Positions 40,575 through 62,253 of a stretch of 64,000 bases of DNA are shown here, one piece after another (position 1 is the first letter of the stretch; every line of letters begins with the position of its first letter). A program made the translations under genes and the position numbers. Origin of the DNA: Thalassobius vesicularis (GTDB taxonomy: Bacteria; Pseudomonadota; Alphaproteobacteria; Rhodobacterales; Rhodobacteraceae); NCBI RefSeq assembly GCF_004799325.1, contig NZ_SSMD01000001.1, forward strand, positions 248,001 to 312,000. Reading direction: 5' to 3'. Below the pieces are notes generated by a model. It had not been told where the DNA came from. It did not search any database and saw nothing but the letters and a program-made list of their open reading frames with translations.

Positions 40575-41933
40575 TCAGTAGATCAGCCGCACCAGCAGCA
40601 TCGTGATCGACGGAAAGGCGACCAGAACGATGATCCGCAGGATGTCCGACACCACGAAGGGCAGCGCCCCGCGATAGGTTTCCGCGATACCGGTTCGCGT
40701 AGACAAGGCGTTGATAACAAACAGATTCATCCCAACCGGCGGGGTGATCAGCCCGATTTCGGCCGACATCAGCACCAGGATGCCGAACCAGATGCCCACC
40801 TCGGCCTGCGGGATGCCGAAATCCAGCCCGGTGATGATCGGAATAAAGATCGGAACGGTCAGGAAAATCATCGCCAGCGAGTCCATGACCGTGCCTAACA
40901 CCAAGTAAAGTAACAACATTCCGCTGAGGATCAGCCAGGGGCTGACTTGTGTCTCCAGGAAAAACTGGGCCAGGGTCTGGGGCACTTGCGCCGCGGCAAG
41001 GAATGAGTTGTAGACCCCCGCCGCCAGGATGATGAAGAAAATCATGGCCGAGGTTTGCCCCGCCGACAGAAGCGATGCCTTGATTTCCCGCAGGCTCAAC
41101 CCGCCTTTCACCCACGCCACAATTGCCGTCCCCGCAACGCCGACAGCCGCCGCGGCGGTGGGTGAAAACGCGCCGGAATAGATCCCGCCGATGACCAGCG
41201 CAAAGATGGTCATGACCGGCCAGACCTGCACCAACGCCTTGAAACGTTTGGAATAATCCAGACGAGGCAGCGCGTTTCCGGACCCTGGAACCAGCCTCGC
41301 ATAGACCGCGATCGTGGCCATGTAGCCCAGCATCGCGATGATGCCCGGCACGAAGGCGGCGACGAACAGCTTCTCGATATTTTCCTCGGCCAGGATCGCG
41401 TAGACGACCAGCACGACGGACGGCGGGATCAGAATGCCCAGCGTCCCACCGGCCGCCAGCGCCCCCGTGGCCAGCGCACCCGAGTAGCCCGCGCGCTCAA
41501 GTTCAGGAAGGGCAACGCGCCCCATCGCCGACGCCGTCGCCAAGGACGAGCCGCACACCGCCCCGAACCCCGCGGAGGCGCCGATCGCCGCCATCGCCAA
41601 CCCGCCCCGACGATGGCCCAGCCATGCCTCGGCGGCTTTGAACAGGGCTGCGGACATGCCGCCCCGGGTGGCGAATTCGCTCATCAACAGGAACAGCGGG
41701 ATGATCGACAGCGAGTAGCTAGTCATCGTTCCATAAGTGAATGTTTTCAATTGGCTATCCATCATCCGCATGTTGCCGGACACGACATAGGTGCCCAGCA
41801 ATCCGGTGATGAACATTGCGGCCGACAGCGGCAGACGAAATGCGATCAAGACCAGCAGAAACGGAAAGCTGAGCAAGCCGATCTGGAAGCTCGAGAAGTG
41901 AGTGGTGACGAAGTCCAGCATGGCGGCCCACAC
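40575..41933 (-). CDS. TRAP transporter large permease (DctM)
   Basis: 452 residues, about 12 hydrophobic segments. The family motif GxxASAMGRVALPELERAGYS-like region and the ILIPPSVVLVVYAILAEENIEKLF segment identify DctM. It carries out sodium-driven uptake with the small permease and binding protein encoded directly upstream. The tandem-HTH LysR gene and the gal operon next door suggest an aromatic acid as substrate. Confidence 0.93.
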   Translation of the reverse strand: MWAAMLDFVTTHFSSFQIGLLSFPFLLVLIAFRLPLSAAMFITGLLGTYVVSGNMRMMDSQLKTFTYGTMTSYSLSIIPLFLLMSEFATRGGMSAALFKAAEAWLGHRRGGLAMAAIGASAGFGAVCGSSLATASAMGRVALPELERAGYSGALATGALAAGGTLGILIPPSVVLVVYAILAEENIEKLFVAAFVPGIIAMLGYMATIAVYARLVPGSGNALPRLDYSKRFKALVQVWPVMTIFALVIGGIYSGAFSPTAAAAVGVAGTAIVAWVKGGLSLREIKASLLSAGQTSAMIFFIILAAGVYNSFLAAAQVPQTLAQFFLETQVSPWLILSGMLLLYLVLGTVMDSLAMIFLTVPIFIPIITGLDFGIPQAEVGIWFGILVLMSAEIGLITPPVGMNLFVINALSTRTGIAETYRGALPFVVSDILRIIVLVAFPSITMLLVRLIY

Positions 41934-41934
41934 G

Positions 41935-42552
41935 TTAGGCGGTCAGTGCGCGCAGGCTGCGCAGAACGCAGAAGGCGGCGACCAGGAAGAAGGAGATGGT
42001 GCAAAGCTCGGCCACGACATAGGTCGGCCACAGGGGCAGGCCAAGGATCTGGCTTTCCTGCGCAGTCCGAACGCGGTCGGCAAAGCCCGAAAGGTCGCCG
42101 CTGACCAGCAGATCCAGCGCGCCGGCCTGCTTGCCCCGCGGCTTATCGAAGATCAGATACCATTGCCGTGTCATGACCATCCACGCGATGGCGCACAGGG
42201 ACAGGTCCGCAAGGACATCCAATACACGATTGAAACCATTGCCAAATTTGGATTCGAACAGGTCTATACGGATGTGGCCGCGGCGGATCATGACCCAAGG
42301 CAGCGCCGAGAACAGGGCCAAACCGACACCGTAGGTGACCAGCTCCTCCTCTCCCAGGATGGCGCGCAGCCAGGGCGCGCTGTCGGTCAGGGCATCGACG
42401 CCAAACGCGGTGTCCAACATGCGGCGGGCCAGCTTCAGGATGATCGACAGACAGGTGACGACGGTGGCGAAAATCAGCCCAAGGCCACCCAGCAGGGCGA
42501 TGCCTTCGGCAAAGCGGGTAAAGGCCCGCTCGGTTCGGTCGAAAAGGGTCAT
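41935..42552 (-). CDS. TRAP transporter small permease (DctQ)
   Basis: 205 residues from the ATG at 42552 (MTLFDRTERAFTRFAEGIALLGG). Four transmembrane segments (near 15-40, 75-100, 115-130 and 172-198). The signature around GEEELVTYGVGLALFSALPWVMIRRGHIRIDL fits DctQ. It ends one base before dctM starts. Confidence 0.9.
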   Translation of the reverse strand: MTLFDRTERAFTRFAEGIALLGGLGLIFATVVTCLSIILKLARRMLDTAFGVDALTDSAPWLRAILGEEELVTYGVGLALFSALPWVMIRRGHIRIDLFESKFGNGFNRVLDVLADLSLCAIAWMVMTRQWYLIFDKPRGKQAGALDLLVSGDLSGFADRVRTAQESQILGLPLWPTYVVAELCTISFFLVAAFCVLRSLRALTA

Positions 42553-42596
42553 GGGGGGTATCCAGACAAGGCGGCCCCCGCAGGGGCCGCGCTGAG

Positions 42597-43616
42597 TTAC
42601 TGATTGGCCGCGATCAGGGCCTTGGCTTGTTCGATCGCCGCAGTGCCGTCGAACCCTTCGCCGGTGGCGCGCTCGACCCAGCGGTCGTAGACGGGTTTGG
42701 AGGCCGCGATCCACCGCGCCACCTCCGCCTCATCCAGCTGGATGATGGCGTTGCCTTCGGCCTTGGACCGGCCGAACGTGTCCGCGTCGCGCATGACTTC
42801 GCCGGCGAACTGGGACAGGGCCTTGCCGGTCTCTGCATCCAGGATTGCGCGCAGGTCGTCGGGCATGCCCTCGTAGACATCCCAGTTCATCGCCAGCACG
42901 AAGGTCGAGGTGTACAGCGCCTTGGCCCCGCCCAGCTCGGTGTGATTGTGAACCAGTTCGGCCAGCTTGATCGAGGGCGTCACCTCCCACGGGATCACGG
43001 TGCCGTTGATCACGCCCTTGGACAGGTTTTCCGGGATCTTCGGCAGAGGCATCCCGACCGGGGTCGCGCCCAGTTCGGCCAGCAGGTCGGTCACGATACG
43101 GGTCGGACCGCGCATCTCCTTGCCGGCCATATCCTCCAGCTTGGTGATCGGATCTTTGGAGTGGATGACGCCAGGACCGTGGACCCAGCCCGCCAGAATC
43201 TTGGTGTCCTTGAATTCGCCATCCTGCAGATCGCTTTGGACCAGATCCCAGAATGCCTTGGAGGTCGCAACCGAGTCCTCCATGATGAAGGGCAGTTCGA
43301 ACACTTCGGCACGGTTGAACCGACCCGTGGTGTAGCCCGGCAGCGTCAGCACTGCCTCGACCGCGCCATCGGCCGCCTGATCGTACAGATCGCCCGGACG
43401 GCCGCCCAGGGACATGCTGTCATAGGGTTCGATCTTGATGCGGCCGTTGCTGGCGGCGGCGACGCGCTCGGCCCACGGCACCAGGAATTTGGAGTGCAGC
43501 GGCGCTTTCTGAGACATGAAGTGATGGACGCGAATGGTGACGTCTTGTGCCTGCGCAAAGCCTGCGGCGGCGGTCAGGACCAAGGCGCCCAAGGTGGATT
43601 TCAAAAGTCTTTGCAT
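42597..43616 (-). CDS. TRAP substrate-binding protein (DctP), gal-linked
   Basis: 339 residues with a signal peptide (MQRLLKSTLGALVLTAAAGFAQA). DctP fold with VGMPLPKIPENLSKGVINGTVIPWEV, where the acid-binding Arg sits shortly before in RGPTRIV. It is clearly paralogous to the binding protein at 60789-61835 (shared VFELPF, WVHGPGxIH, LGATPVGMP and GTxIPWEVT). It heads the dctPQM set and is preceded by a LysR-type site. Confidence 0.93.
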   Translation of the reverse strand: MQRLLKSTLGALVLTAAAGFAQAQDVTIRVHHFMSQKAPLHSKFLVPWAERVAAASNGRIKIEPYDSMSLGGRPGDLYDQAADGAVEAVLTLPGYTTGRFNRAEVFELPFIMEDSVATSKAFWDLVQSDLQDGEFKDTKILAGWVHGPGVIHSKDPITKLEDMAGKEMRGPTRIVTDLLAELGATPVGMPLPKIPENLSKGVINGTVIPWEVTPSIKLAELVHNHTELGGAKALYTSTFVLAMNWDVYEGMPDDLRAILDAETGKALSQFAGEVMRDADTFGRSKAEGNAIIQLDEAEVARWIAASKPVYDRWVERATGEGFDGTAAIEQAKALIAANQ

Positions 43617-43715: not shown

Positions 43716-44897
43716 TTAGTTTTCACCAAACTCTGTGGCGAGCTCCCGCAGGATCGACATCAACGTCTTTTGGGTCTGGGTCGGTCGCCAATCTGCGCGC
43801 CATGTCATACCGATTTCCCTCGGGCTATCGCTCAGATCAATCGGTATTCTGTACAGCGACCCGGTGCGGAGCTCTTCGCTGACCTGGTTGGCTGAGATCA
43901 TCGTCAGCCTGTCGCTGTCCTGCAAAAGTCCACGCACCAGCAGCATCGCGTTCGACTCGATCACCGCGCCGTGTCGCCCCCCGAAGAACGCATCGAAATG
44001 CGCGCGCGTTGGTGTGCCTTTGCGGGCCACCACCCAAGGATACGCGGCCAGATCGGTCTTGGAGGGGCGGGTGTCGCGTAAGGGATGGGACGGACCGCAG
44101 AACACACCCAGACGGTCGGTGAACAGCGTTTCCTGCACAACGTCGGGGGCTGGGGCGGGCCAGCGCAACGCGCCCAGCATCAGGTCAATTTCGCCGTGCC
44201 GCAAGGCGTGCAGCATCTCGTCATACGAGCTGTCGCTCACCGATATTTGCAGACGCGGACGCAGACTTGCCAGTTGGTTGAGCGCTCGCGGAAGGATGGT
44301 GCCCCTGGCCAAAGGCAGGCTGCCGATGCGCAAAACGCCTCTCTCAACCCCTTGTAATTGACCGATATCGTCGATGGCGTGATCCATCTCGGCAAAGGCC
44401 AGACGAGCGGCGCGGACAAGTAGTTCGGCGGCTGGGGTCAACTCGATCCCCTTTGGGCGCTTCACAAAAAGGGGTTGTTCAGACAGCGCCTCCAGATCCC
44501 GCGCGGTTCGGTAGAGCGACGGCTGGGACACCCCCACAGACCGCGCCGCGACCGAGAAATTTCCATGCCCGGCCACCGCGATCAAGGCGCGCAACTGGGT
44601 GCTGGTCAGCTGGTCGGCAAAGCCCGCACCCTTACGCGTCTTTTGCGCGGCGGCCCTGAGCAGATCCAACGCCCGCAGGGTTCGCAAATACAGAATTTCG
44701 GCGGCTTGCGTCGGCACCATGCCCTTGCTGGACCGGGCAAATAGCTGGACGCCAAAGTCGTTTTCCAGCCGTGCAATCGCTTGGGTAATGGCGGGTTGGG
44801 ACAGATGCACTGCCCCGGTCGCAGCTGATATCCCGCCACTTCGGCACACCTCGGCAAAAGCTTTCAGGTGTCTGAGGTTGAAATTCTGGCCCTGCAA
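43716..44897 (-). CDS. LysR-type regulator with two tandem HTH domains
   Basis: 393 residues, about 90 longer than a normal LysR protein. Residues 8-66 form a LysR HTH (LRHLKAFAEVCRSGGISAATGAVHLSQPAITQAIARLE), and residues 99-157 form a second (STQLRALIAVAGHGNFSVAARSVGVSQPSLYRTARDLE). The effector domain follows from about 184 to the end. It is divergent from galB and upstream of dctPQM, and a T-N11-A site lies on each side. It probably controls both operons in response to a pathway compound. Confidence 0.9.
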   Translation of the reverse strand: MQGQNFNLRHLKAFAEVCRSGGISAATGAVHLSQPAITQAIARLENDFGVQLFARSSKGMVPTQAAEILYLRTLRALDLLRAAAQKTRKGAGFADQLTSTQLRALIAVAGHGNFSVAARSVGVSQPSLYRTARDLEALSEQPLFVKRPKGIELTPAAELLVRAARLAFAEMDHAIDDIGQLQGVERGVLRIGSLPLARGTILPRALNQLASLRPRLQISVSDSSYDEMLHALRHGEIDLMLGALRWPAPAPDVVQETLFTDRLGVFCGPSHPLRDTRPSKTDLAAYPWVVARKGTPTRAHFDAFFGGRHGAVIESNAMLLVRGLLQDSDRLTMISANQVSEELRTGSLYRIPIDLSDSPREIGMTWRADWRPTQTQKTLMSILRELATEFGEN

Positions 44898-44928: not shown

Positions 44929-45006
44929 TGCTGCACCGGGAATGAAATGGCAAGTCGTGTGGGCCACCGTCATGTTGCGTCCAAACCTGTCAGGGGGAGA
45001 ACAACA

Positions 45007-45738
45007 TTGACTGATAAGAAAACCGCACTGGTGATTTCCGCACACGCCGCCGATTTTGTCTGGCGCTGCGGTGGGGCGATCGCGCTGCATCAGAAACTCG
45101 GTTACGAGGTGACGGTCGCCTGCCTGTCCTATGGCGAGCGTGGCGAAAGCGCCCGCCTGTGGAAAGAGGGCAAGTCTCTGGACCAGGTCAAATCGATCCG
45201 GCGCACCGAGGCGGAAAACGCCGCTGCCGCGCTGCACGTCCACGATATCCAGTTTCTGGACCTTGGGGATTACCCTCTGAACCTGGGGCAAGAGGCGCAG
45301 GAACGCGTGGTGGATATCATCCGCGCCGTTCAGCCGCGCTTTATGCTCAGCCACTCGCAATATGACCCGTACAACACCGACCACATGCGCACGACCGAGT
45401 TCGTGCTGACCTGCCGGATGATCGCGCAGGCCTGGGGTCACAATCCGGGGCAAAAGGTGCTGGGCGCGCCGCAGTTGTACCTGTTCGAACCGCACCAGAC
45501 CGAGCAGATGGGATGGAAACCCGACACCTTCCTGGACATCACCGAGGTCTGGGACCAGAAGCGCGCCGCTATCGAGTGCATGGAGGGGCAGCACCACCTT
45601 TGGGACTACTACACCAACGTGGCACAGAACCGGGGCAACCATTTTCGTAGGAACTCGGGCGGGCAGGCGGGTGGGCGCGCAGCCCGGTATGCCGAGGGCT
45701 TTCAATCCGTGTTCCCCCGCACCGTCGACGAGCTTTGA
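45007..45738 (+). CDS. galB: 4-oxalomesaconate hydratase (GalB, PIG-L family)
   Basis: 243 residues. I choose a TTG start at 45007 because AGGGGGAGA lies 7 bases upstream and the protein then begins MTDKKTALVISAHAADFVWR, as in Pseudomonas GalB; an ATG at 44947 has no ribosome site. Zinc ligands are His13, Asp16 and His126 (SAHAAD, NTDH). GalB hydrates the enol/keto form of 4-oxalomesaconate to 4-carboxy-4-hydroxy-2-oxoadipate. First gene of a four-gene operon with a dioxygenase, galC and galD. Confidence 0.88.
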   Translation: MTDKKTALVISAHAADFVWRCGGAIALHQKLGYEVTVACLSYGERGESARLWKEGKSLDQVKSIRRTEAENAAAALHVHDIQFLDLGDYPLNLGQEAQERVVDIIRAVQPRFMLSHSQYDPYNTDHMRTTEFVLTCRMIAQAWGHNPGQKVLGAPQLYLFEPHQTEQMGWKPDTFLDITEVWDQKRAAIECMEGQHHLWDYYTNVAQNRGNHFRRNSGGQAGGRAARYAEGFQSVFPRTVDEL

Positions 45739-45748
45739 GGAGGGCCCG

Positions 45749-46708
45749 ATGAACGCACCGACCAACCCGTCCTTCGATATCGCGCATCTGGCGCATGTCG
45801 AGATTTACACCGACAAATTCGACGAAAGCCTGGACTTTTTCACCCGCGTCTTCGGGCTGAAACTGTCCGGTCAGGATGACACCAGCGCCTATCTGCGGGC
45901 TTGGGACGATTACGAATACCACTCGTTGAAGCTGACCCGCCACCACACCACCGGCGTCGGGCATATCGGCTATCGCGCCGCCAGCCCCGAGGCGTTAGAG
46001 CGTCGCGTGGCCGCCATCACCGCGTCAGGCTACACCGTTCATGGCTGGAACGACGGCGATCTGGGGCATGGTCGCGCGTTCCGGTTCGAGGACCCGTTCG
46101 GGCACGTTTTCGAAATCTACTACGACACCCAACGCGCCCCGGCGGACGATCCCTCGGCGCTGAAAAACATGGCGTCGCGGTTCCATGCACAGGGGGCCTG
46201 CCCGCGCCGGATCGACCACCTGAACTTGCTCAGCGCGGACGTTACCGAGTTCCGCCGCTTCATGGAAACCTGTCTGGGCAGCCGCGTGACCGAGATGATC
46301 CAGCTGGACAACGGACGCTTGGGCGGTTGCTGGTTCACGGTCAACAACAAGACCTACGACCTTGCCTGCACCGAGGAACACGGTGGTGGCAACGGCCGTC
46401 TGCACCACGTCACCTATGCCACCGATCAGCGCGAGGACATCCTGCGCGCCGCGGACGTGTTCCTGGAAAACGGCATCCACATCGAAACCGGGCCACACAA
46501 GCACGCCATTCAGGGCACGTTCTTTCTGTACGTCTGGGAACCGGCGGGCAACCGGGTGGAGCTGGCCAACGCCGGCGCGCGCCTGATCCTAGCCCCGGAT
46601 TGGGAACCCGTCGTCTGGACCGAAGCCGACCGCAAGAAGGGTCAGGCCTGGGGGTTGAAAACGATCGAGAGCTTCCACACGCACGGCACACCTCCTGTAA
46701 GCCGCTGA
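45749..46708 (+). CDS. Type I (VOC) extradiol ring-cleavage dioxygenase
   Basis: 319 residues, 10 bases after galB, preceded by GAGGAGG. Two VOC domains: residues about 10-125 (HLAHVEIYTDKFDESLDFFTRVFG) and 153-275 (RIDHLNLLSADVTEFRRFMETCLG). The likely Fe ligands are His157, His220 (RLHHVTYATD) and Glu271 (GNRVELAN). The end, DWEPVVWTEADRKKGQAWG, resembles catechol 2,3-dioxygenase. In this operon it should make a substrate for GalB/GalD, i.e. 4-oxalomesaconate, which in known pathways comes from unrelated LigB-fold enzymes. The true substrate (gallate or another trihydroxylated acid) is inferred. Confidence 0.88.
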   Translation: MNAPTNPSFDIAHLAHVEIYTDKFDESLDFFTRVFGLKLSGQDDTSAYLRAWDDYEYHSLKLTRHHTTGVGHIGYRAASPEALERRVAAITASGYTVHGWNDGDLGHGRAFRFEDPFGHVFEIYYDTQRAPADDPSALKNMASRFHAQGACPRRIDHLNLLSADVTEFRRFMETCLGSRVTEMIQLDNGRLGGCWFTVNNKTYDLACTEEHGGGNGRLHHVTYATDQREDILRAADVFLENGIHIETGPHKHAIQGTFFLYVWEPAGNRVELANAGARLILAPDWEPVVWTEADRKKGQAWGLKTIESFHTHGTPPVSR

Positions 46709-46735
46709 CCTGAAACAGTAAAAAGGAACAGACTC

Positions 46736-47407
46736 ATGGGTGTCGTGGTTCAAAACATCAAACGGACAGAGGCAGAGGTCATCGCGAAACTGGGGCAAGC
46801 GGGTGTCGCAACCGTCCACGAAGCCCAAGGTCGGGCCGGCCTTATGAGCGCGCGGATGCGGCCCATTCAGCGGGATATGTCCATTGCAGGCTCTGCCGTC
46901 ACCATCAGCGCACCGCCCGGTGACAACTGGATGATCCACGTCGCGATCGAGCAGTTGCAGCCCGGCGATATCCTGGTTCTGGCCCCGACTGCGCCTTGCG
47001 ATATGGGCTATTTCGGTGACCTTCTGGCGACCTCAGCGATGGCGCGGGGCTGTACTGCGCTGGTGATCGACGCAGGTGTGCGCGACACGCGCGATCTGCG
47101 AGCGATGGGGTTCGGCGTGTGGTCCTCGGCCGTTTCGGCCCAAGGGACGGTGAAAGAGACGGTTGGTTCAGTCAACGTGTCATTGGTCTGCGCCGGGGCG
47201 TTGGTCCATCCGGGGGACGTGATCGTGGCCGATGACGACGGGGTTTGCGTGGTTCCTCGCGAACAGGCCGGGGCGGTCGCGCAGGCCGCCGCGCAACGTT
47301 TACATGCCGAGGAGGAGAAACGCCAACGGCTGGCGGCAGGAGAGCTGGGCCTCGACATCTACAACATGCGCGCGGCGCTTGCGGCGAAGGGGCTGAAATA
47401 TGTCTGA
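46736..47407 (+). CDS. galC: 4-carboxy-4-hydroxy-2-oxoadipate aldolase (GalC/LigK)
   Basis: 223 residues of the RraA-like HMG/CHA aldolase family. Active-site elements are [12 protein letters not shown] (backbone-binding loop) and [11 protein letters not shown] with its Arg/Asp pair. It splits 4-carboxy-4-hydroxy-2-oxoadipate to pyruvate and oxaloacetate and usually also decarboxylates oxaloacetate. Overlaps galD by 8 bases. Confidence 0.92.
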
Positions 47408-48449
47408 TGGCACACGCGTCATGTGGATGCGCGGGGGCACCTCGAAGGGCGGGTATTTCCTAGCGGACGATCTGCCCTCGGACAGGTCTTTGCGCGACGA
47501 GTTGCTGCTGCGGATCATGGGCTCGCCCGATCCACGGCAGATCGACGGGTTGGGCGGGGCGGATCCACTGACCTCGAAAGTGGCCGTGGTGCGCCCGTCC
47601 AAACGCGACGGGGTCGATGTCGACTATCTGTTCCTGCAAGTGTTTCCGGATCGTCCCGTGGTTTCGGATTCGCAGAATTGCGGGAACATTCTGGCCGGCG
47701 TCGGCCCCTTCGCGATCGAACGAGGCATGGTGTCCGCACAGGACGGTGAAACTCAAGTCACTGTTTTTATGGAGAATACAGGGCAGATCGCCGTGTTGCG
47801 AGTGCAGACCCCCTCCAATACGGTAACGTATGGTGGTCTTGCGCGGATCGACGGCGTCCCCGGCACCGCCGCGCCTGTGCAGATCGAGTTCCGCGACACC
47901 GCCGGGTCCTCCTGCGGCGCCCTACTGCCCAGTGGGCGCGTGGTGGATGTCATCGACGGGATCGAAGCAACCCTGATCGACAACGGCATGCCCTGTGTGG
48001 TGATGCGCGCCGCAGATTTCGGGTTGAGCGGGCAGGAAACGCCTGAGGAGTTGGAGGCCAACTCCGCCTTGCGCGAAAGGCTGGAGGCGATCCGCCTGCA
48101 GACTGGGCCGTTGATGAACCTTGGCGACGTGTCCGCGAAATCAGTGCCCAAGATGGTGCTGCTCAGCCCTGCTTTGCACGGCGGGGCCATTCAGACCCGC
48201 AGCTTCATCCCGCACAGGAGCCACAAGGCGATCGGGGTTCTGGGCGCGGTCAGCGTCGCCTCGGCCTGCCTGACGCCGGGCGCTGTTGGGAACGATCTGG
48301 CAACCCTGCCCCATGGCAACCCTAAGCCCCTGTCGATCGAGCATCCGACAGGTGAAATGACGGTCATCGGCCATCTGGATGGCAACCAACTGGTACGGGC
48401 CGAGGTTTTGCGCACGGCCCGTAAGCTGTTGGATGGGTTTGCTTTTTAG
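47400..48449 (+). CDS. galD: 4-oxalomesaconate tautomerase (GalD, PrpF family)
   Basis: 349 residues, two diaminopimelate-epimerase-like halves. [21 protein letters not shown] at the start is the PrpF/GalD signature. Conserved [20 protein letters not shown] and [11 protein letters not shown] follow. GalD converts 4-oxalomesaconate between keto and enol forms so that GalB can act. Last gene of the gal operon; three bases separate it from the convergent SDR. Confidence 0.92.
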
Positions 48450-52899: not shown

Positions 52900-54090
52900 T
52901 CAGTAGGTTTCGACGTGATAGCGGCCTTCTTCGCGCATCGTGTCGCGCAGGGCAACCCATTGCACGCCGATGCTTTCGGCGATGTTGGTCAGGGCCTTGC
53001 CGACGCCTTCTTCCATCCCGCGCAGACCGCAGATGTAGATATGGGTGTTCGGATCGCCCAGCATCTCGGCCACGGCGTCCTGTTCGACCATCATCCGATC
53101 CTGCACGTATTCCTTGGGCTGATCCGGCAGGCGCGAGAACACCATGTGGGTTTTCAGCAGCCCCTCGGGCACCTTTTTCAGCGGGCCGAAATAGGGCAGC
53201 GTGTCCGCCGAGCGGGCCCCGAAGAACATGGTCATGCCGCCGGATTTGGCGCCCACGGTGCGCTGACGGCGCATGGTGAAGGCCCGCATCGGGGCCGAGC
53301 CGGTGCCGGTGCAGATCATCAGCAGGCGGGCCTGCGGGTCGTCGGGCAGCAGGAAGGTCGCGCCGAACGGGCCGGTGACCTTGACCTTGTCGCCCGGTTT
53401 CAGGTCGCAGACGTAGTTCGAGCAGATGCCGTGCTCTTCGCGCTTCACGGTCAGCGAGACGTTGCCGTAGTTCGGACGCTCGCCGTCACGCGGGCTGGAG
53501 ACGGAGTAGAGGCGCGGCAGGTGCGGCTGGCCCTTGTCGTCGGTGCCGGGGGCCATGATGCCGATGCTTTGCCCCTCCAGAACGGGGAACGGCTTGCCGT
53601 CGAACGCCAGGATGATGTGGCGGATGTCGCTGTCGGACCCGTCGGCGGTCAGGCGGTAGTTGCCCTGAACGGTCGCCTCGATCGGGTTGGCGAGGTTGTA
53701 CATGTTCACCGTCGGCTTGGCGGCGGATGCGGGCGCCTTGGCCTTGCCACCGGCACCGGCATGCGCCTCGGCCAGAAGGGCGGCCATCGCGGCGTCCAAC
53801 GCCTCCATACCACCGGCGGCTTCGTTCTGGGTGATCTCGGCCTGCGCGGGCAGTTCTTCCCATCCGAATTGTTCGTCCACCGAGTAGGGCTGGGTCACGA
53901 CGCGCCATTCGTCGATCGAGCCGGTCGGGCACACGGGGATGCAGGCCATGCAGTAGTCGCATTTGTCGGCATCGACGACGACGTTGTTGTCGTCATGCAC
54001 GATGGCCTCGATCGGGCAGGTCATTTCACAGGTGTAGCAGCGGATGCAGATCTCGGGGTCGATGAGATGCTGCTTGATGGGCGTATTCAT
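52900..54090 (-). CDS. boxA: Benzoyl-CoA 2,3-epoxidase reductase subunit BoxA
   Basis: 396 residues. An N-terminal 2[4Fe-4S] ferredoxin domain (Cys15, 18, 21, 25 and Cys44, 47, 50, 54), then a linker (about 70-150) and an FNR-like reductase with RLYSVSSPRDGE (FAD) and GTGSAPMRAF (NADPH). Passes electrons from NADPH to the diiron epoxidase BoxB. A 54-residue one-cluster gene lies between boxB and boxA. Confidence 0.96.
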   Translation of the reverse strand: MNTPIKQHLIDPEICIRCYTCEMTCPIEAIVHDDNNVVVDADKCDYCMACIPVCPTGSIDEWRVVTQPYSVDEQFGWEELPAQAEITQNEAAGGMEALDAAMAALLAEAHAGAGGKAKAPASAAKPTVNMYNLANPIEATVQGNYRLTADGSDSDIRHIILAFDGKPFPVLEGQSIGIMAPGTDDKGQPHLPRLYSVSSPRDGERPNYGNVSLTVKREEHGICSNYVCDLKPGDKVKVTGPFGATFLLPDDPQARLLMICTGTGSAPMRAFTMRRQRTVGAKSGGMTMFFGARSADTLPYFGPLKKVPEGLLKTHMVFSRLPDQPKEYVQDRMMVEQDAVAEMLGDPNTHIYICGLRGMEEGVGKALTNIAESIGVQWVALRDTMREEGRYHVETY

Positions 54091-54136
54091 GTTCTTCAGT
54101 CCGTGTTCGCGCGGGCAGGTTGGCGATCTGGCGGGG

Positions 54137-54301
54137 TTAACCGCGGTTCAGGATCGCCTCGGGGAAGGTGATGACCTCGATCAGAGCCTGGCACAGACCA
54201 CGGCAGTTCGTACAGCCCACACAGCTGCCGCCAAGTGCGCTGACGGTGGGACCGATCGCGGCGGTGCGGGGTGCGTTTGCAATCTGACGTTCGACTTTCA
54301 T
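54137..54301 (-). CDS. Small [4Fe-4S] protein in the box operon (54 aa)
   Basis: ATG at 54301 with GGGAGGAG just upstream, TAA at 54137-54139; 54 residues. The sequence contains CVGCTNCRGLC: Cys27, Cys30, Cys33 and Cys37 in the CX2CX2CX3C spacing of a single [4Fe-4S] cluster. The N-terminus is MKVERQIANAPRTAAIGPTV and the end is ITFPEAILNRG. It lies 66 bases after boxB and 46 before boxA on the same strand. I do not know a named family. It could be an electron carrier or assembly factor for the epoxidase. Confidence 0.82.
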   Translation of the reverse strand: MKVERQIANAPRTAAIGPTVSALGGSCVGCTNCRGLCQALIEVITFPEAILNRG

Positions 54302-54367
54302 GTTCTCCTCCCAAAGCTCATGTGCTTGCGGGCCGGGGCGATCGGGCCGCCCCGGCCGTGTTTTCGC

Positions 54368-55819
<1,452 letters not shown>

Positions 55820-55903
55820 TTTTCTCTCCCTAGGGCCGTGCCGGACCAACTGTTCGACCGGACGGCAATAATTTGGGGTGGGCACCATAGCCCACCCCGA
55901 TCA

Positions 55904-57559
55904 TCACACACGTTGCATGTTGTAATCGCCGCGCACGCCGGTGCCGTACCGCTGCAGGGCGCCGTCCTTGCCGACCGCGTTGGGGCGCTGGAAGATCCAG
56001 TTCTGCCAGGCGGTCAGGCGGCCGAAGATGCGGGTTTCCATGGTTTCCGGGCCAGCGAAACGCAGGTTCGCCTCCATGCCGGTCATCGCGTCGGGGCTGA
56101 AGCTGGCGCGCTCTTCCATGAAGATGCGGATTTCGTCTTCCCAGTCGATGTCGTCATAGATGTAGGTGACCAGTCCCAGTTCGTTGGCTTGATCGGCCTC
56201 GATCTCTTCGCCGATATGGGATTTCAGCGTGTCGACCTGCTCGGGCGTGCCCAGGAAACGGGTTTCCAGGCGGGTCAGGTCGTTGCCCATCGGGTAGGTG
56301 CCGAAGTTGCTGTCCGACATGACGATCTTGGCCATCGGGCGGTTGTCGCCTTCGAACTCGTCTTCCATCATGTAGGTGCGGTCGACGGCCCAGAGCAGCT
56401 CGGCCAGGACACCGACGAAGCACGAGCCGTGCTCGACCAGGGCCACCAGCGAGCGCGAGGTCACGTCGACCCGCTTCAGGACGCGCTTCCAGTACTGGGT
56501 GATCTCGTGGGCCAGCCAGTTGTCGTCGTTGTCCAGCAGGATCTTTTCGTTGGCCAGCACCGCGTCGGCGTCGCCCTGGCTGCGGATGACCCACAGGCCC
56601 AGCTCTTTTTCGTTGTTGCGCAGGTGCAGGATCGCGTCGTCGAATTCACGCGCCAGACGCAGCAGGTAGGACTGATCGCCCAGAGCCATCACTTCGTCCA
56701 TCGAGGCGGGCACAGCGGCGTCGGGGCCGTTCAGGGTGATGGTCGCCTTGCGGGCGGCGCGGTCCAGTTCGACCTCGACCAGCGAGTAGCTGATGGCGTT
56801 TTCGCTGAAGGTACGCTGGATCGGGCCCAGGGTGATACCCTTGGTGGCCTTGGTCGGGGTGGCGTCGGCGAATTCCTTGGCGCGGGCGGCGACGGTTTCG
56901 TCGAACTTCGAGTTCGGCACGACCTCGTCCACCAGTTTCCAGTCTTTCGCACGCTTGCCGCGCACGCCTTCTTCCATTGCGCAGAACACGTCGGCCAGAT
57001 CGCGGCGGACCTTGCGCTTGTCGGTGACGCGGGTCAGGCCACCGGTGCCGGGCAGCACGGCCAGCAGCGGCACTTCGGGCAGCGCCACGGCCGAGGAGCT
57101 GTCGTCGGTCAGGATGATGTGGTTGCAGGCCAGCGCCAGCTCATAGCCGCCACCTGCGCAGGAGCCTTTGACGGCCGCGACGTATTTCTGGCCCGAGTCT
57201 TTCTCGGCGGCCTCGAAGGTGTTGCGGGTCTCGTTGGTGAATTTGCAGAAGTTCACCTTGTGGGCGTGCTCGGCGCCGCCCAGCATGCGGATGTTCGCAC
57301 CGGCACAGAACACCTTGTCCTTGCCCGACTGCATCACCACGACTTTGACTTCGGGATGCTCGAAGCGCATGCGCTGGACCACGTCGGCCAGCTCGATATC
57401 AACACCCAGATCGTAGGAGTTAAGCTTCAGCTGGTAGCCATCGAACAGGCCCCCGTTTTCATCCACGTCCATTACGAGGCGTGCAACGTCGCCTTCGTAT
57501 TGCACTTTCCAGTGGCGGTACTTAGACGGGTCCGTCTGAAAGTCGATCACTTTGGTCAC
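55904..57559 (-). CDS. boxC: 2,3-epoxybenzoyl-CoA dihydrolase BoxC
   Basis: 551 residues. An enoyl-CoA hydratase-like fold, with a first crotonase half (about 30-270, PLLAVLPGTGGLTRVTDKRKVRRDLADV) and a second half. BoxC opens the ring of 2,3-epoxybenzoyl-CoA, giving 3,4-dehydroadipyl-CoA semialdehyde and formate. First gene of the boxC-boxB-smallFeS-boxA-thioesterase unit, with three palindromic sites upstream. Confidence 0.95.
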   Translation of the reverse strand: MTKVIDFQTDPSKYRHWKVQYEGDVARLVMDVDENGGLFDGYQLKLNSYDLGVDIELADVVQRMRFEHPEVKVVVMQSGKDKVFCAGANIRMLGGAEHAHKVNFCKFTNETRNTFEAAEKDSGQKYVAAVKGSCAGGGYELALACNHIILTDDSSSAVALPEVPLLAVLPGTGGLTRVTDKRKVRRDLADVFCAMEEGVRGKRAKDWKLVDEVVPNSKFDETVAARAKEFADATPTKATKGITLGPIQRTFSENAISYSLVEVELDRAARKATITLNGPDAAVPASMDEVMALGDQSYLLRLAREFDDAILHLRNNEKELGLWVIRSQGDADAVLANEKILLDNDDNWLAHEITQYWKRVLKRVDVTSRSLVALVEHGSCFVGVLAELLWAVDRTYMMEDEFEGDNRPMAKIVMSDSNFGTYPMGNDLTRLETRFLGTPEQVDTLKSHIGEEIEADQANELGLVTYIYDDIDWEDEIRIFMEERASFSPDAMTGMEANLRFAGPETMETRIFGRLTAWQNWIFQRPNAVGKDGALQRYGTGVRGDYNMQRV

Positions 57560-57594
57560 GTCGGCGTCTCCTCATAACCTATTCGCGTTTTTCT

Positions 57595-57606
57595 GCACTA
57601 TAATGC
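57595..57606. promoter_or_regulatory. BoxR-type operator 1 upstream of boxC
   Basis: GCACTATAATGC, a near-perfect palindrome; its reverse complement GCATTATAGTGC occurs exactly at 61864-61875. On the minus strand it contains TATAGT, a plausible -10, 36-47 bases before the boxC start. Confidence 0.72.
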
Positions 57607-57634
57607 GCCAAACCCCCTCTGGGAAGCCCTTTAT

Positions 57635-57646
57635 GCGCTATAGTGA
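57635..57646. promoter_or_regulatory. BoxR-type operator 2 upstream of boxC
   Basis: GCGCTATAGTGA, one 3' base away from the consensus GCRCTATARTGC. Centre-to-centre spacing to site 1 is 40 bases, about four helical turns. Confidence 0.65.
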
Positions 57647-57709
57647 CAAATCTTTCGTCATTTCTGGGCTGGTTTGGCGCTGATTGCGCAAATCGCCCGG
57701 CTCATTTGT

Positions 57710-57721
57710 GCATTATCATGC
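57710..57721. promoter_or_regulatory. BoxR-type operator 3 upstream of boxC
   Basis: GCATTATCATGC, the same palindrome with one central change. It lies next to the DUF309 stop codon, about 155 bases from the boxC start. Confidence 0.6.
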
Positions 57722-57724
57722 ACC

Positions 57725-58171
57725 TCAATGCCGATCCGGCGAGTCCCGCCGAATCTGATTCTCCAGCGCGTGGATCGCGTCACGCAGGTCTTCCAGCGGC
57801 TGGCCCATGACCGGGCCTTGGCCCAGGTGGTCCAGATGGCCGGCCACGATGCGGCACAGGCGCAGGACCGCGCGGGGGCGGCCCATCTCTCGTTTCAGGC
57901 AGGCATTGGCCAGCTGGATCAGCGCCTGCACCATCTCGCGCTCGCGCGAGCCGCGGGGCAGCGCCAGCCAGATCGGCTCCAGCACCTCGTGGGCCTCCCA
58001 GTAGAAACCGTCCTCCAGATAGGCCAAACCGGCAGCCCAGGCGGGCGTGGCGGCAAGCTCTGCCGGCGAGGCGCCCTGCCGCGCGGTGGCGCGGATCGCG
58101 TCGAACTGTCCCTCGGGGTGGCGCGGAGTCCGGCCGGGCACGTAGGGATATGCCGGATAGGTCAGCTGCAT
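57725..58171 (-). CDS. DUF309 family protein in the box locus
   Basis: 148 residues, helical. The core AAGLAYLEDGFYWEAHEVLEPIWL and REREMVQALIQLANACLKREMGR match DUF309. Function unknown. It begins 3 bases after the alpha/beta hydrolase stop, so it is in the operon with the benzoate-CoA ligase. Confidence 0.82.
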   Translation of the reverse strand: MQLTYPAYPYVPGRTPRHPEGQFDAIRATARQGASPAELAATPAWAAGLAYLEDGFYWEAHEVLEPIWLALPRGSREREMVQALIQLANACLKREMGRPRAVLRLCRIVAGHLDHLGQGPVMGQPLEDLRDAIHALENQIRRDSPDRH

Positions 58172-58174
58172 CCG

Positions 58175-58993
58175 TCAGACCCCTTCCGGCTGCGCGGCTT
58201 CGATCCGGGCCAGACGGGCGGTGAATTCGGCCACGACGGCCAGCACCTTGTCGGTCTGATCGAATTGCGGGGCGTGGCCGCAGGCGTCCAGCACCTCGAC
58301 ATCCACGGGGGCGTAGGAACGGTTGGCGATCTCGTCGATCTGCGCGAGCGAGCCGTATTCGTCGTCACGGCCCTGAATGGCAAGGGTCGGCACGCGCAGA
58401 TAGTCGATCACGTCGGCCACATTCCACGACTGGAACTTGGGGTTCAGCCAGGAATTGTTCCAACCGCGAAAGGCGTTGTCGGGGTTGCGGTGATACTTGC
58501 CCAGCTTGGCCTTCAGATCGCCGGTGTCGTAGACCTCTTTCGCCTTGGCGATCGAGGCCAAGCCCATCGGTTCAGTGAAATAGTGCGGGGCCATCACGAC
58601 CAGCCCGCGCACGCGCATATCCGACACGCCGCCGCAATAGATGCTGGCGATGGTCGCGCCGTCTGAATGGCCCATCAGCACGCCCGAGCGGAACCCGATC
58701 GCGTCCAGCACATGCGGCAGGACGTCGACGGCCTCGTCGGTCATATAGTGCACAGGCCAGGGCAGCGGCTTGCCGTCCGACTGGCCATAGCCCGCGCGGG
58801 AATAGGCCAGCACGCCCCAGCCCGTCGCCGCGGCCAGTTTCGCCGGGAAATCGCGCCACAGGGCGACGCAACCCAGCCCTTCGTGCAGCAGAACGATGGT
58901 GGGGGCCTGATCGGGCGCGGGGCCCCAGCAGGCATATTCCAGCTTTACACCATTGGCGTCTAGAAAGCCGTTACCGGCGGACCAGTCCATCAT
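58175..58993 (-). CDS. Alpha/beta-hydrolase in the benzoate operon
   Basis: 272 residues, alpha/beta fold. Nucleophile Ser110 in GHSDG, an oxyanion-hole LLHEGLG (residues 35-41) and a late His in DACGHAP. Its start overlaps the benzoate-CoA ligase stop by 4 bases (58990-58993). It may act on lactone, ester or thioester by-products; the substrate is not clear. Confidence 0.85.
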   Translation of the reverse strand: MMDWSAGNGFLDANGVKLEYACWGPAPDQAPTIVLLHEGLGCVALWRDFPAKLAAATGWGVLAYSRAGYGQSDGKPLPWPVHYMTDEAVDVLPHVLDAIGFRSGVLMGHSDGATIASIYCGGVSDMRVRGLVVMAPHYFTEPMGLASIAKAKEVYDTGDLKAKLGKYHRNPDNAFRGWNNSWLNPKFQSWNVADVIDYLRVPTLAIQGRDDEYGSLAQIDEIANRSYAPVDVEVLDACGHAPQFDQTDKVLAVVAEFTARLARIEAAQPEGV

Positions 58994-60531
58994 GCGCCCT
59001 CACGCAGTTTGAATCGCTGGATCTTGCCCGTTGCGGTTTTCGGCAGGTCTTTGACCACCTCGACCCAGCGCGGGTATTTCCATTTGCCGATCTTCTGTTT
59101 GACGAACTCTTTCAGCTCGTCCAGCTCGCTCTCTCCGTGGCCGGGTTTCAGGACGACGAAGGCCTTGGGTTTTTCCAGCCCTTCCTCGTCGCGCCACGCC
59201 ACCACGGCAGCCTCCAGCACGGCAGGATAGGCGATCAGGGCTTGTTCAACCTCGAACGGCGAGACCCAGATGCCCGAGACCTTGAACATGTCGTCGGTGC
59301 GGCCGCAGTAGATGAAGCGGCCCGTTTCGGTGCGTTCGTATTTGTCGCCGGTGCGGGTCCAGTGGCCCTCGAAGGTCGAGCGCGACTTGCCCCGGTTGTT
59401 CCAGTAGCCATCGGCCGCCGAGGGGCCGCTGACCAGCAATTCACCGACGCCGCCGGGGCCGACATCGGCACCGTCTTCGTCAACAAGGCGAACGTCGTAG
59501 CCCGGAACCGGCAAACCCGAGGTGCCATAGATCACATCACCCGGACGGTTGGACAGGAAGATGTGCAGCATCTCGGTCGAGCCGACGCCGTCCAGAATAT
59601 CGACGCCCCAGCGGGCGAACCATTTCTTGCCGATCTCCTCGGGCAGCGCCTCGCCAGCGGAAATGCAGGTGCGCAGCTTGGTGTCGGGCAGGGCTTTGCC
59701 GTCCTCCCAATAATGCACCATGGCGGCGTAAAGCGTTGGGACGCCACAGAAAATCGTGGGCTTGTGGATGTCCATGATCTCGGCCGCGACGTCCGGCGTG
59801 GGACGGCCCGAGAACAGGATCGCCGTCGCGCCGACCGACATCGGGAAGGTCATGCCGTTGCCAAGGCCGTAAGCGAAGAACAGCTTTGCGACCGAATAGA
59901 CGACGTCATCCTCGCGGATGCCCAGCACATGCGCGCCGTAGGTGTCGGCGGTGGCGCAGAGGCTGCCGTGGACGTGCTTCACGCCCTTCGGCTGGCCGGT
60001 CGAGCCGGAGGAGTAGAGCCAGAAGGCGATCTCATCCTCGGAGGTTTCGACGGTCTGCGCGGGCTCGGCCCCCTGCATGAAGGCGTCATAGGTGATCGCG
60101 CCCTGCGGCGCGTCGTCGGCGATGATGATGACCTCGCGCAGGAACGGGTTGTCCTGCAGCGCGGGGGCGACGACCGGGTAAAGCGACTCGGACACGAACA
60201 GGGCGACGGCGCGGCTGTCGCGCAGGATCACGTCATAGACCGACGCGGCCAGCAGGGTGTTCAGCGGAATGGGGATGACCCCGGCCTTTAGCGCGCCCCA
60301 GAACAGCACGGGCATTTCCTGCTGGTCCAGCACCAGCAGCGCCACGCGTTCTTCGCGGTTGATACCCACCTTGCGAAAGGCCGCAGCGGCGCGGGCGGTC
60401 TGGTCGGCCAGCTGGGCATAGGTGATGTCACGCTGTTTGCCATCGGCCTCGCGGAAGGCCAGCTTATCACCGCGCCCCTCCGATACATGCCGATCCACGA
60501 AATGGGTCGCGGCGTTCTTGCAATCCGTCAT
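58990..60531 (-). CDS. bclA: Benzoate--CoA ligase
   Basis: 513 residues from the ATG at 60531. ANL superfamily with the AMP-binding YSSGSTGQPKG-type motif, DGVGSTEMLHIF, YKRTETGRF-type domain boundary and the C-terminal catalytic Lys in KTATGKIQRF. The motifs and position place it in the benzoate/aryl-CoA ligase group. It makes benzoyl-CoA, the substrate of the BoxAB epoxidase and inducer of BoxR. Confidence 0.92.
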   Translation of the reverse strand: MTDCKNAATHFVDRHVSEGRGDKLAFREADGKQRDITYAQLADQTARAAAAFRKVGINREERVALLVLDQQEMPVLFWGALKAGVIPIPLNTLLAASVYDVILRDSRAVALFVSESLYPVVAPALQDNPFLREVIIIADDAPQGAITYDAFMQGAEPAQTVETSEDEIAFWLYSSGSTGQPKGVKHVHGSLCATADTYGAHVLGIREDDVVYSVAKLFFAYGLGNGMTFPMSVGATAILFSGRPTPDVAAEIMDIHKPTIFCGVPTLYAAMVHYWEDGKALPDTKLRTCISAGEALPEEIGKKWFARWGVDILDGVGSTEMLHIFLSNRPGDVIYGTSGLPVPGYDVRLVDEDGADVGPGGVGELLVSGPSAADGYWNNRGKSRSTFEGHWTRTGDKYERTETGRFIYCGRTDDMFKVSGIWVSPFEVEQALIAYPAVLEAAVVAWRDEEGLEKPKAFVVLKPGHGESELDELKEFVKQKIGKWKYPRWVEVVKDLPKTATGKIQRFKLREGA

Positions 60532-60666
60532 AAGGCTCCTCCCTTTGCCCGGGAGGGTGCAAGACATTCCCGGGCGCCTTGTCCTGTGCCGGCGATGTCG
60601 ATGCCTGGCTGGGGTCCTCCTCCCTGCCGGTGGAATCGACGCGTCGCACGGCTGCGCGAGTCATAT

Positions 60667-60688
60667 GCTCTATAATGCACTATTTCGC
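60667..60688. promoter_or_regulatory. BoxR-type operators upstream of the benzoate-CoA ligase
   Basis: GCTCTATAATGC (60667-60678) overlaps GCACTATTTCGC (60677-60688) in tandem. A third relative, GCACTTTTTCGC, is at 60719-60730. They lie 136-200 bases before the ligase start. The first contains TATAGA on the minus strand. Confidence 0.62.
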
Positions 60689-60788
60689 ATCACTCGCAAG
60701 CATCAGATCGGCATTTGTGCACTTTTTCGCATAAACGAAAAAGGGGCCGCGGTGTTGCCACCACGACCCCTCCACGGGAGCGTTCAGA

Positions 60789-61835
60789 TCACTTCGTATA
60801 TTGAGCGATCAAAGCGCTGGCTTCGTCGATCAGAGCCTGACCGTCGATTCCCTTGCCCTTCACGTCTGCGATCCATTCGTCGTAGACGGGCTGAGCGGCT
60901 TTCTTCCACTCTGCGGTTTCTTCGGCCGACAGGGTGATGATGTTGTTGCCCAGTTCCACGGCCTTCTGGCGCGCGGGACCATCGGCATCCGCCTGGGTGC
61001 CACCTGCGAACACCGAGAATTCTTCGCCGGAGTTGGCGTCGATCACGGCCTTCAGGTCATCGGGCAGGCTGTTGTACTTGTCCTTGTTCATCGCCAGAAC
61101 GAAGGTGATGGTGTACAGCGCCTTGCCGGTGAATTCGGTGTGGTTCTTCACCAGTTCGGGCACTTTCAGCGCGGCGGTCACTTCCCACGGAATGGTGGTG
61201 CCGTCGATCACGCCCTTGGACAGCGCCTCGGACACGGCCGGAACGGGCATCCCGACGGGGGTTGCACCCAGCACGGTCAGCAGCGAGTTCACGGGGCGCG
61301 AGCCGCCGCGGATCTTCATGCCGTTCATGTCTTCGGGCTTATGCACCGGCTTGTTGGTGTGGATCATGCCGGGGCCGTGGACCCAGGCGCCCAGGATGTG
61401 GACGTCCTTGAATTCGGTGTCTTTCCAGTGCTTGTCGAACATCTGCCAATAGGCGCGCGACACGGCACGGGCATCGGTCATCATGAAGGGCAGCTCGAAC
61501 ACCTCGGTCGAGGGGAAACGGCCCGGGGTGTAGCCGACCACGGTCCAGACGATGTCGGCGACGCCGTCAATGGCCTGGTCCATCAGCTCTGGCGGCTTGC
61601 CGCCCAGCTGCATCGAGGGATAACGCTCGACCTTGATGCGGCCCTTGGAGTCAGCCTCGACCTTGTCGGCCCAGACATCCAGCACCAGCTTGGGCACGTT
61701 GGCCTGAGCGGGCAGGAACTGGTGCAGCTTCAGGGTGACTTCTTGTGCCATAGCCGGAGCGGCGGTGAAGGCCGTGGCCAGCGCGGCGAAAGCCGCCCCA
61801 CCCAGCACGCCCAGAATGGTTCTGCGGTTCGTCAT
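60789..61835 (-). CDS. Orphan TRAP substrate-binding protein (DctP) in the box locus
   Basis: 348 residues from the ATG at 61835 with a Tat- or Sec-like signal (MTNRRTILGVLGGAAFAALATAFTAAPAMA). Paralogue of the binding protein at 42597-43616. No permease gene follows or precedes it here. By position it should deliver benzoate or a related aromatic acid, perhaps using the DctQM at 40.6-42.6 kb. Confidence 0.9.
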   Translation of the reverse strand: MTNRRTILGVLGGAAFAALATAFTAAPAMAQEVTLKLHQFLPAQANVPKLVLDVWADKVEADSKGRIKVERYPSMQLGGKPPELMDQAIDGVADIVWTVVGYTPGRFPSTEVFELPFMMTDARAVSRAYWQMFDKHWKDTEFKDVHILGAWVHGPGMIHTNKPVHKPEDMNGMKIRGGSRPVNSLLTVLGATPVGMPVPAVSEALSKGVIDGTTIPWEVTAALKVPELVKNHTEFTGKALYTITFVLAMNKDKYNSLPDDLKAVIDANSGEEFSVFAGGTQADADGPARQKAVELGNNIITLSAEETAEWKKAAQPVYDEWIADVKGKGIDGQALIDEASALIAQYTK

Positions 61836-62253
61836 GTATCTCCTCCCATGCGCCGAGTTTTCGGCATTATAGTGCCTAAATCTATGCACATGGTGCACCA
61901 TATTGCTAGAAGAATCTGCGCCCTTTTGCGTGATTTTGGCAGGTTTTCGGCGGAATTCGGGACTGGCGTCCGCGCCACCGCGTTACGGGCCCACGACCGG
62001 CGGGCGAATGTGGCACCGATTCGACGGGCGGGACTCTGGCGCCTTGGGCGGCACTGTCGAAAGCACGGAAACAACGGGTCAGTCTGCCCCAAAACCGTTT
62101 CCGAAACTGCCCAGATACGGACGCAACCTATCACTGTATTGCCCCCTGCCCTGCCCAAATTCGCCACATTTAGAGTCAAATCTGAACAGGAGAAAAAATC
62201 CGTCCCAGGCCCTGGAAACGCCATGTGGACGCGGTCGATTTGGGTGAGATGAA
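61836..62253. other. Intergenic region between TRAP gene and response regulator
   Basis: 418 bases with two promoters pointing outward: the box-type site at 61864 for the minus-strand gene and, presumably, a plus-strand promoter near 62160-62250. Apart from the palindromes I see no RNA gene or conserved ORF. A 114-codon plus-strand frame (61903-62247) is judged spurious. Confidence 0.55.
61864..61875. promoter_or_regulatory. BoxR-type operator upstream of the orphan TRAP binding protein
   Basis: GCATTATAGTGC, the exact reverse complement of the site at 57595-57606. On the minus strand it gives TATAAT about 32 bases before the start codon. A further repeat GCACATGGTGC is at 61886-61896. Confidence 0.7.

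Follow-up and report, generated by a model that had tools for sequence, protein, structure and literature searches.

Organization of the gal operon

The stretch of Thalassobius vesicularis DNA analysed here over its full 64,000 nucleotides (the window, G000:C1:248001-312000) comes from a 3.79 Mb draft genome of 46 contigs with an estimated completeness of 100 %. It contains a tight operon, galB - VOC dioxygenase gene - galC - galD, in which the genes of the lower gallate pathway stand together with a gene for a VOC-fold type I extradiol dioxygenase of 319 amino acids (aa), the proposed gallate dioxygenase with which this work is concerned. The galB-like gene (45007..45738), encoding a 4-oxalomesaconate (KCH) hydratase of the PIG-L family, is separated by 10 bases from the dioxygenase gene (45749..46708). 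After a further 27 bases follows galC/ligK (46736..47407) for 4-carboxy-4-hydroxy-2-oxoadipate aldolase, whose end overlaps by 8 bases with galD (47400..48449) for the 4-oxalomesaconate tautomerase of the PrpF family. In the list of open reading frames (ORFs) galB begins with TTG, preceded by a plausible AGGGGGAG, and this start was preferred to the in-frame ATG at 44947, a possible alternative.

The assignment of galC and galD was based on curated models. GalC scored 374.7 bits with NF006731 (cut-off 179) and 349.9 bits with TIGR02798 (cut-off 304.5), and GalD reached 522.3 bits with NF033377 (cut-off 440). GalB (PF02585) was assigned by its best solved relative, the 4-oxalomesaconate hydratase 5cgz (E 4.6e-86). 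The three genes of the lower pathway, named in the initial annotation from the sequence, were thus confirmed in their places, and all four genes of the operon lie on the plus strand.

The VOC-fold dioxygenase

The dioxygenase matched PF00903 and PF22247 above their cut-offs, as expected of the two-module VOC fold, and a Pfam search found in it no LigB or LigA domain of the GalA/DesB kind. With the catechol 2,3-dioxygenase model TIGR03211 it scored 304.2 bits, below the cut-off of 320.2, and with the type I HpaD model TIGR02295 only 207.7 bits, far below 321.4. The likeness to catechol 2,3-dioxygenase noticed earlier is not confined to the C-terminus, since residues 12-316 were aligned on TIGR03211. 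The structure model (pLDDT 83.4) was closest in fold to 3lm4 (Foldseek E 2e-36) and to AphC, 7q2a (both TM 0.87 and 37 % identity), followed by LapB and homoprotocatechuate dioxygenase. The closest solved chain by sequence was 9wgj, named 'catechol 1,2-dioxygenase' (E 1e-102 over residues 9-319); it was absent among the fold-search matches listed, and no open-licence paper naming it was found.

The metal site proposed in the initial annotation is present: His157 (46217..46219, plus strand, as are the other codons given here), His220 (46406..46408) and Glu271 (46559..46561) were invariant in all 36 rows of the alignment, and the HHE triad was found in 135/135 homologues of at least 44 % identity. 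His157 was aligned to a metal ligand of homoprotocatechuate 2,3-dioxygenase (HPCD). At the position of HPCD His200, a catalytic residue of the second sphere, the window protein has Tyr203 (46355..46357) in place of His; structures of the HPCD variants H200N, H200Q, H200E and H200C were among the fold-search matches listed. Thr247 occupies the position of HPCD Arg243, with Ser in one of the homologue sequences listed.

The Tyr is a property of a whole group of enzymes. Among 140 distinct homologues read from the fetched loci it was found in 133, all of at least 55 % identity, and His in the 7 most distant ones (at most 47 %). When 53 thinned sequences were placed in a tree with FastTree, the 46 with Tyr formed one clade (support 0.94). 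This clade is represented in alpha- and gammaproteobacteria and has relatives in Actinomycetota and Thermus; its members carry the database labels 'catechol 2,3-dioxygenase', 'BphC' or 'VOC family protein'. Catechol meta-pathway genes surround the His-bearing relatives in 4/4 loci examined (L177, L191, L136, L137), a count made without the unannotated L190 and without L001 and a second gene in L136, which are HpaD-type outgroups. L177 and L191, the latter a Thermus thermophilus record, contain acetaldehyde dehydrogenase and 4-hydroxy-2-oxovalerate aldolase; L136 and L137 contain 2-hydroxymuconic semialdehyde dehydrogenase. The genomic context thus switches with the residue, gal genes lying around the Tyr clade and the catechol meta-pathway around the His relatives.

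Gene order in related loci

The closest relatives of the dioxygenase belong to Rhodobacteraceae, e.g. that of Thalassococcus halodurans with 91 % identity. Gene neighbourhoods were compared in 80 loci, the best 80 of at least 587 confirmed matches; the set leans to close relatives, and some of its loci share their source organism or stem from near-identical ones (e.g. L034/L035, L069/L070, L095/L096). Counts of loci were made by tblastn unless stated, and neighbour clusters were built with a home-made ORF caller. Relatives of galB were found in 70/80 loci, of galC in 72/80 and of galD in 68/80, with all three on the same contig in 68/80, so that the linkage to galB, galC and galD seen with GalA/DesB-type enzymes is shared by the window and 68 of these loci. 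The search for the same gene order suggested in the initial annotation gave a contiguous galB-VOC-galC-galD run on one strand in 55/80 loci; both frequencies are far from chance.

No locus of the 80 contained relatives of DmpF, DmpG or DmpH (1e-25), the lower-pathway linkage of catechol 2,3-dioxygenases, and aldehyde dehydrogenase relatives were seen in 5/80, 2 of these within 3.5 kb. This near absence of semialdehyde-processing enzymes is expected if the product of ring cleavage is already a tricarboxylate. A tannase gene is inserted between galC and galD in L081. LigM relatives occur in 11/80 loci, including L088, where the curated cut-off was exceeded.

A DUF1932 dehydrogenase-like gene (e.g. 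L105:1434-2348) was present in 36/80 loci, in 34 of them within 5 kb of the VOC gene, and such a gene also adjoins the LigA/LigB-sized genes of L116. The label of folate enzyme considered for the neighbour cluster L048:8965-9888 was dropped, as no Pfam match was obtained at 1e-8.

Search for other sources of 4-oxalomesaconate in the same genome

The single-query searches of the T. vesicularis genome had no internal positive control; elsewhere, in other loci, the LigM and LigI queries gave matches. The identity of the LigI query (Amidohydro_2) was inferred, as it lies below the cut-off of the one NCBIfam model that it matched; it shares 67-74 % identity with genes that adjoin LigA/LigB in five further genomes (L114, L115, L117-L119).

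Three proteins of the LigB family were found: HpaD_Fe (446.7 bits, cut-off 315.95), a DOPA-dioxygenase and one that matched no NCBIfam model at 1e-70. None of them is GalA, and the genome search revealed no LigA domain, so the possibility raised in the initial annotation, that galBCD has its real partner in a LigB-fold gallate dioxygenase encoded at another place, was rejected. 2-Pyrone-4,6-dicarboxylate (PDC) was rejected as a source of 4-oxalomesaconate in this genome, no LigI-like PDC-hydrolase relative having been detected at 1e-70 or at 1e-5. Protocatechuate was rejected as the substrate in this strain because PobA and PcaH lie together at a separate protocatechuate locus on contig 6; the ORF adjoining PcaH, a second PF00775 match, was taken as PcaG, although no NCBIfam model matched it at the strict limit. 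The LigM query gave no match at 1e-10 and the DUF1932 query none at 1e-30. With neither GalA nor a PDC-hydrolase relative, cleavage of gallate is the only visible route to 4-oxalomesaconate in this genome.

The type I HpaD and the type II HpaD_Fe, non-homologous homoprotocatechuate enzymes, adjoin at L001 (G000:C9). The pair is a precedent, in this very genome, for two folds sharing one step.

Distribution in the family and on plasmids

In a sample of 248 genomes of the family, VOC matches (limit 1e-60) were found in 44, tautomerase model matches in 119 (110 over cut-off), LigA in 27, LigI-like proteins (1e-70) in 36 and DUF1932 (1e-30) in 46, absence being understood as no match at these limits. 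The VOC enzyme and the tautomerase model (E 0.001) coincided in 41/44 VOC genomes against 21.1 expected (Fisher p 4e-12), and in at least 29/44 the tautomerase match was located at most 15 kb from the VOC gene. LigI of at least 60 % identity was present in 25/27 LigA genomes and in 7/44 VOC genomes (5.3 expected), and 32/44 VOC genomes had neither LigA nor any LigI-like match. DUF1932 accompanied VOC in 25 genomes against 8.2 expected, only 5 of the 25 also having LigI of at least 60 %. These counts indicate that the protocatechuate 4,5-route travels as LigAB with LigI, and the VOC enzyme with galBCD, mostly without LigI. A test for mutual avoidance of VOC and LigA was null (4/44 with both, 4.8 expected, p 0.80); 40/44 VOC genomes had no LigA match. 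A close tannase (limit 1e-40; 64-65 %) was found in 2/248 genomes, G039 and G042, both VOC carriers, the latter also with LigA and LigI.

The close tannase (at least 60 %) was also found on 22 plasmid records, each from a VOC-carrying strain; 19 of them are near-identical pAt plasmids and 3 come from Thioclava, where the VOC gene is carried by a different plasmid. The order on pAt of Agrobacterium tumefaciens (walnut) is LysR, DUF1932, ABC transporter, galB, VOC, galC, galD and tannase, the last with its tannase domain found, and the same run occurs in A. vitis with a carboxylesterase replacing the tannase. Annotation of the plasmids is incomplete and missing neighbours there are weak evidence. 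VOC and gal genes lie on large, predicted-conjugative plasmids of plant-associated Agrobacterium (L165, L166, L186).

The association extends to distant lineages. The VOC gene of Pantoea piersonii is preceded by an aromatic-acid/H+ symporter gene and adjoins LysR and galB-galC-galD, an arrangement resembling galT-galA of P. putida; for Pantoea At-9b and Chimaeribacter the annotation shows no gal gene up to 7 kb from the VOC gene. GalB, GalC and GalD relatives accompany the Nonomuraea relative (55 %). Within the stretch examined, two of four large alphaproteobacterial genomes (62-63 %) had both GalB and GalC; of the other two, one had GalC alone and the last had neither. The Methylobacterium relative (59 %) has DUF1932 and ligK nearby, and that of Roseomonas (60 %) adjoins a class III extradiol dioxygenase, a LigI-like hydrolase and DUF1932.

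Regulator, transporter and other neighbours

Upstream of the gal operon and oriented opposite to it are a regulator gene and the genes of a tripartite ATP-independent periplasmic (TRAP) transporter. The divergent LysR-type regulator (43716..44897, minus strand, 393 aa) gave two HTH_1 profile matches and is a predicted LysR protein with a doubled DNA-binding part. Two HTH_1 matches were also obtained in the LysR relatives tested from L036 and L066; relatives of at least 30 % identity occur in 47/80 loci, the cluster having a median of 396 aa across these loci.

The transporter genes, likewise on the minus strand, encode the solute-binding protein DctP (42597..43616; PF03480, NF037995 over cut-off, nearest solved proteins 7nr2 and 5im2), the small permease DctQ (41935..42714; PF04290, 48.0 bits against 28.3) and the large permease DctM (40575..41933; PF06808, TIGR00786 302.1 against 268.45). 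The DctQ match spans residues 119-257 only, so translation probably begins at a more internal start. Elsewhere in the window (52900-61901) there is a benzoyl-CoA epoxidation cluster with BoxA, BoxB, BoxC and a benzoate-CoA ligase family protein, all over cut-offs, and a second TRAP binding protein.

The proposed pathway and alternative substrates

Gallic acid is a building block of plant tannins, and gallate is formed when tannins and syringyl lignin are broken down. The operon is quite probably a complete gallate-degradation unit, with gallate as the likeliest substrate and with ring opening by a VOC-fold type I dioxygenase instead of a LigB-fold GalA/DesB. The non-homologous replacement of gallate dioxygenase put forward in the initial annotation draws its support from genome comparison: the absences in the genome itself, the conserved gene order, the gallate-generating tannase and LigM neighbours and the lack of DmpF, DmpG and DmpH. 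The co-occurrence with the tautomerase in the family sample and the separation of the Tyr203 clade from His-bearing relatives with catechol genes point the same way.

In the proposed scheme gallate would be taken up through the adjacent TRAP transporter. The VOC enzyme, predicted from the aligned ligands His157, His220 and Glu271 to bind Fe(II) or Mn(II), would split the C4-C5 bond with O2. As both cleaved carbons bear a hydroxyl, the product should be the carboxylate 4-oxalomesaconate and no semialdehyde. On the family models and the solved relative, GalD would tautomerise this compound, GalB hydrate it and GalC split it to pyruvate and oxaloacetate, so that, judged from the gene products, the four genes would suffice to convert gallate into these two metabolites. 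An intermediate of the pathway is probably the signal sensed by the LysR protein.

Several observations weigh against this interpretation or narrow it. No tannase relative was found in the T. vesicularis genome at 1e-40, 7/80 loci had no gal gene within the stretch examined, and the name of 9wgj, the closest solved protein, speaks of catechol. LigI relatives are present in 7/80 loci (one a 57-residue fragment only), directly after galD in G143 and L091; the 3-hydroxybenzoate 4-hydroxylase MobA in 5/80, the one tested matching PDB 2dkh (E 1e-272); and LigAB-type genes in 2/80. In the lineages concerned, these neighbours suggest that PDC or protocatechuate is involved. A true gallate dioxygenase (NF009904, 720 against the cut-off of 412) is encoded in G005 (L130) in a single run with a TRAP transporter and the VOC gene, so the VOC enzyme is not a simple replacement there. 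In the family sample VOC and any LigI-like match coincided in 12/44 genomes against 6.4 expected (p 0.016), an excess that speaks for the rival substrates. Finally, the relative on a Thermus oshimai plasmid (L170, 58 %, Tyr clade) stands beside PobA, aldehyde dehydrogenase, DUF6282, PIG-L and GalC with no tautomerase annotated within 7 kb, which suggests a protocatechuate-linked version of the pathway.

The LigI, MobA, LigAB and GalA neighbours would fit a broader specificity in some lineages, extending to 3-O-methylgallate and protocatechuate, or a varied diet served by several ring-opening enzymes, as in Sphingobium SYK-6. The second branch of the initial annotation, in which another acid gives the same product, may also hold, since LigI, MobA, LigAB or a real GalA lies close by in a few relatives; 3-O-methylgallate and protocatechuate are the main rivals, possibly as additional substrates.

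According to the first alternative, the VOC enzyme would mainly cleave 3-O-methylgallate, derived from syringate, to 4-carboxy-2-hydroxy-6-methoxy-6-oxohexa-2,4-dienoate (CHMOD) or PDC; galBCD would act after hydrolysis, and gallate would be a side substrate or be handled otherwise. The LigM relatives in 11 loci, the LigI genes behind galD, the excess of VOC/LigI-like coincidence and the GalA gene in the run of L130 agree with this, as does the flow of 3-O-methylgallate in Pseudomonas sp. NGC7 through MgaAB-MgaC-MgaD to GalD-GalB-GalC (PMC12314914). However, the genome under study has no LigM match at 1e-10 and no LigI match at 1e-5, the operon contains no esterase, LigI of at least 60 % is hardly more frequent in VOC genomes than expected (7 against 5.3), and the neighbouring tannases yield gallate, not 3-O-methylgallate. 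On balance this course of the pathway seems rather unlikely.

A type I protocatechuate 4,5-dioxygenase is a still weaker candidate, and we consider it distinctly improbable. Protocatechuate would be opened to 4-carboxy-2-hydroxymuconate-6-semialdehyde (CHMS), and 4-oxalomesaconate would then arise through a dehydrogenase, either DUF1932 or an aldehyde dehydrogenase, followed by hydrolysis. MobA in 5 loci with its 2dkh match, DUF1932 in 36 loci together with its enrichment in VOC genomes (25 against 8.2), and the PobA and aldehyde dehydrogenase of the Thermus relative are in keeping with such a route. Against it speak the genome itself, which has PcaH and PobA and gave no DUF1932 match at 1e-30 and no LigI match at 1e-5, the rarity of LigI of at least 60 % among genomes with VOC and DUF1932 (5/25), and the presence of aldehyde dehydrogenases within 3.5 kb in only 2/80 loci.

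That a catechol or alkylcatechol 2,3-dioxygenase merely adjoins galBCD is very improbable: the TIGR03211 score is near the cut-off, which the Thermus relative passes (332.2 bits), the fold is closest to AphC and 3lm4, and 9wgj is named a catechol dioxygenase, but the window protein does not reach that cut-off, DmpF/G/H are missing from all 80 loci, gal genes adjoin in both alpha- and gammaproteobacteria, and Tyr203 stands in place of His.

Returning to gallate as the substrate, we lean towards the wider view that bacterial gallate dioxygenases have a second lineage, not homologous to the usual one, in the Tyr203 clade of VOC enzymes, in which His changed to Tyr on the move from catechols to trihydroxybenzoates and which opens gallate from tannins and syringyl lignin in plant-associated and marine bacteria. 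If so, a VOC-fold gallate dioxygenase would have arisen by convergence with the LigB enzymes, a common annotation would be corrected, and the clade would be a natural example of extradiol dioxygenases with Tyr in place of the catalytic second-sphere His, a residue that has been probed with mutants in HPCD. Genome screens based on GalA/DesB only would miss the 40/44 VOC carriers without a LigA match in the sampled family.

Comparison with known systems

Gallate dioxygenases are assigned to the LigB superfamily and catechol 2,3-dioxygenases to the VOC superfamily (PMC4250580, PMC3962378), and searches of open-licence PMC papers listed no report of a VOC-fold gallate dioxygenase. In Sphingobium SYK-6 the enzymes DesB, LigAB and DesZ serve in the degradation of gallate, protocatechuate and 3-O-methylgallate (PMC3962378), and the GalD, GalB and GalC reactions are known in other bacteria (PMC12314914).

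GalA of P. putida KT2440 and DesB of SYK-6, type II enzymes of the LigB fold, share with the window enzyme the proposed reaction, the downstream GalD/GalB/GalC and the linkage to gal genes; they differ in superfamily, the window enzyme being a VOC protein with no LigB or LigA domain. The syringate route of NGC7 has the same GalD-GalB-GalC end, but its ring is cleaved by the LigAB-type MgaAB on 3-O-methylgallate (PMC12314914).

Among type I enzymes, AphC (7q2a, solved with 4-ethylcatechol) and 3lm4 of RHA1 share the fold and the metal triad but have His at the position of Tyr203; the gene of the window enzyme adjoins gal genes. HPCD/HpaD (1f1x) has the same triad and a similar fold (TM 0.82), but the identity is 28 %, the HpaD cut-off is not reached, and HPCD Arg243 and His200 correspond to Thr247 and Tyr203. 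The chain 9wgj, matched over residues 9-319, carries Tyr at the same position as the window enzyme.

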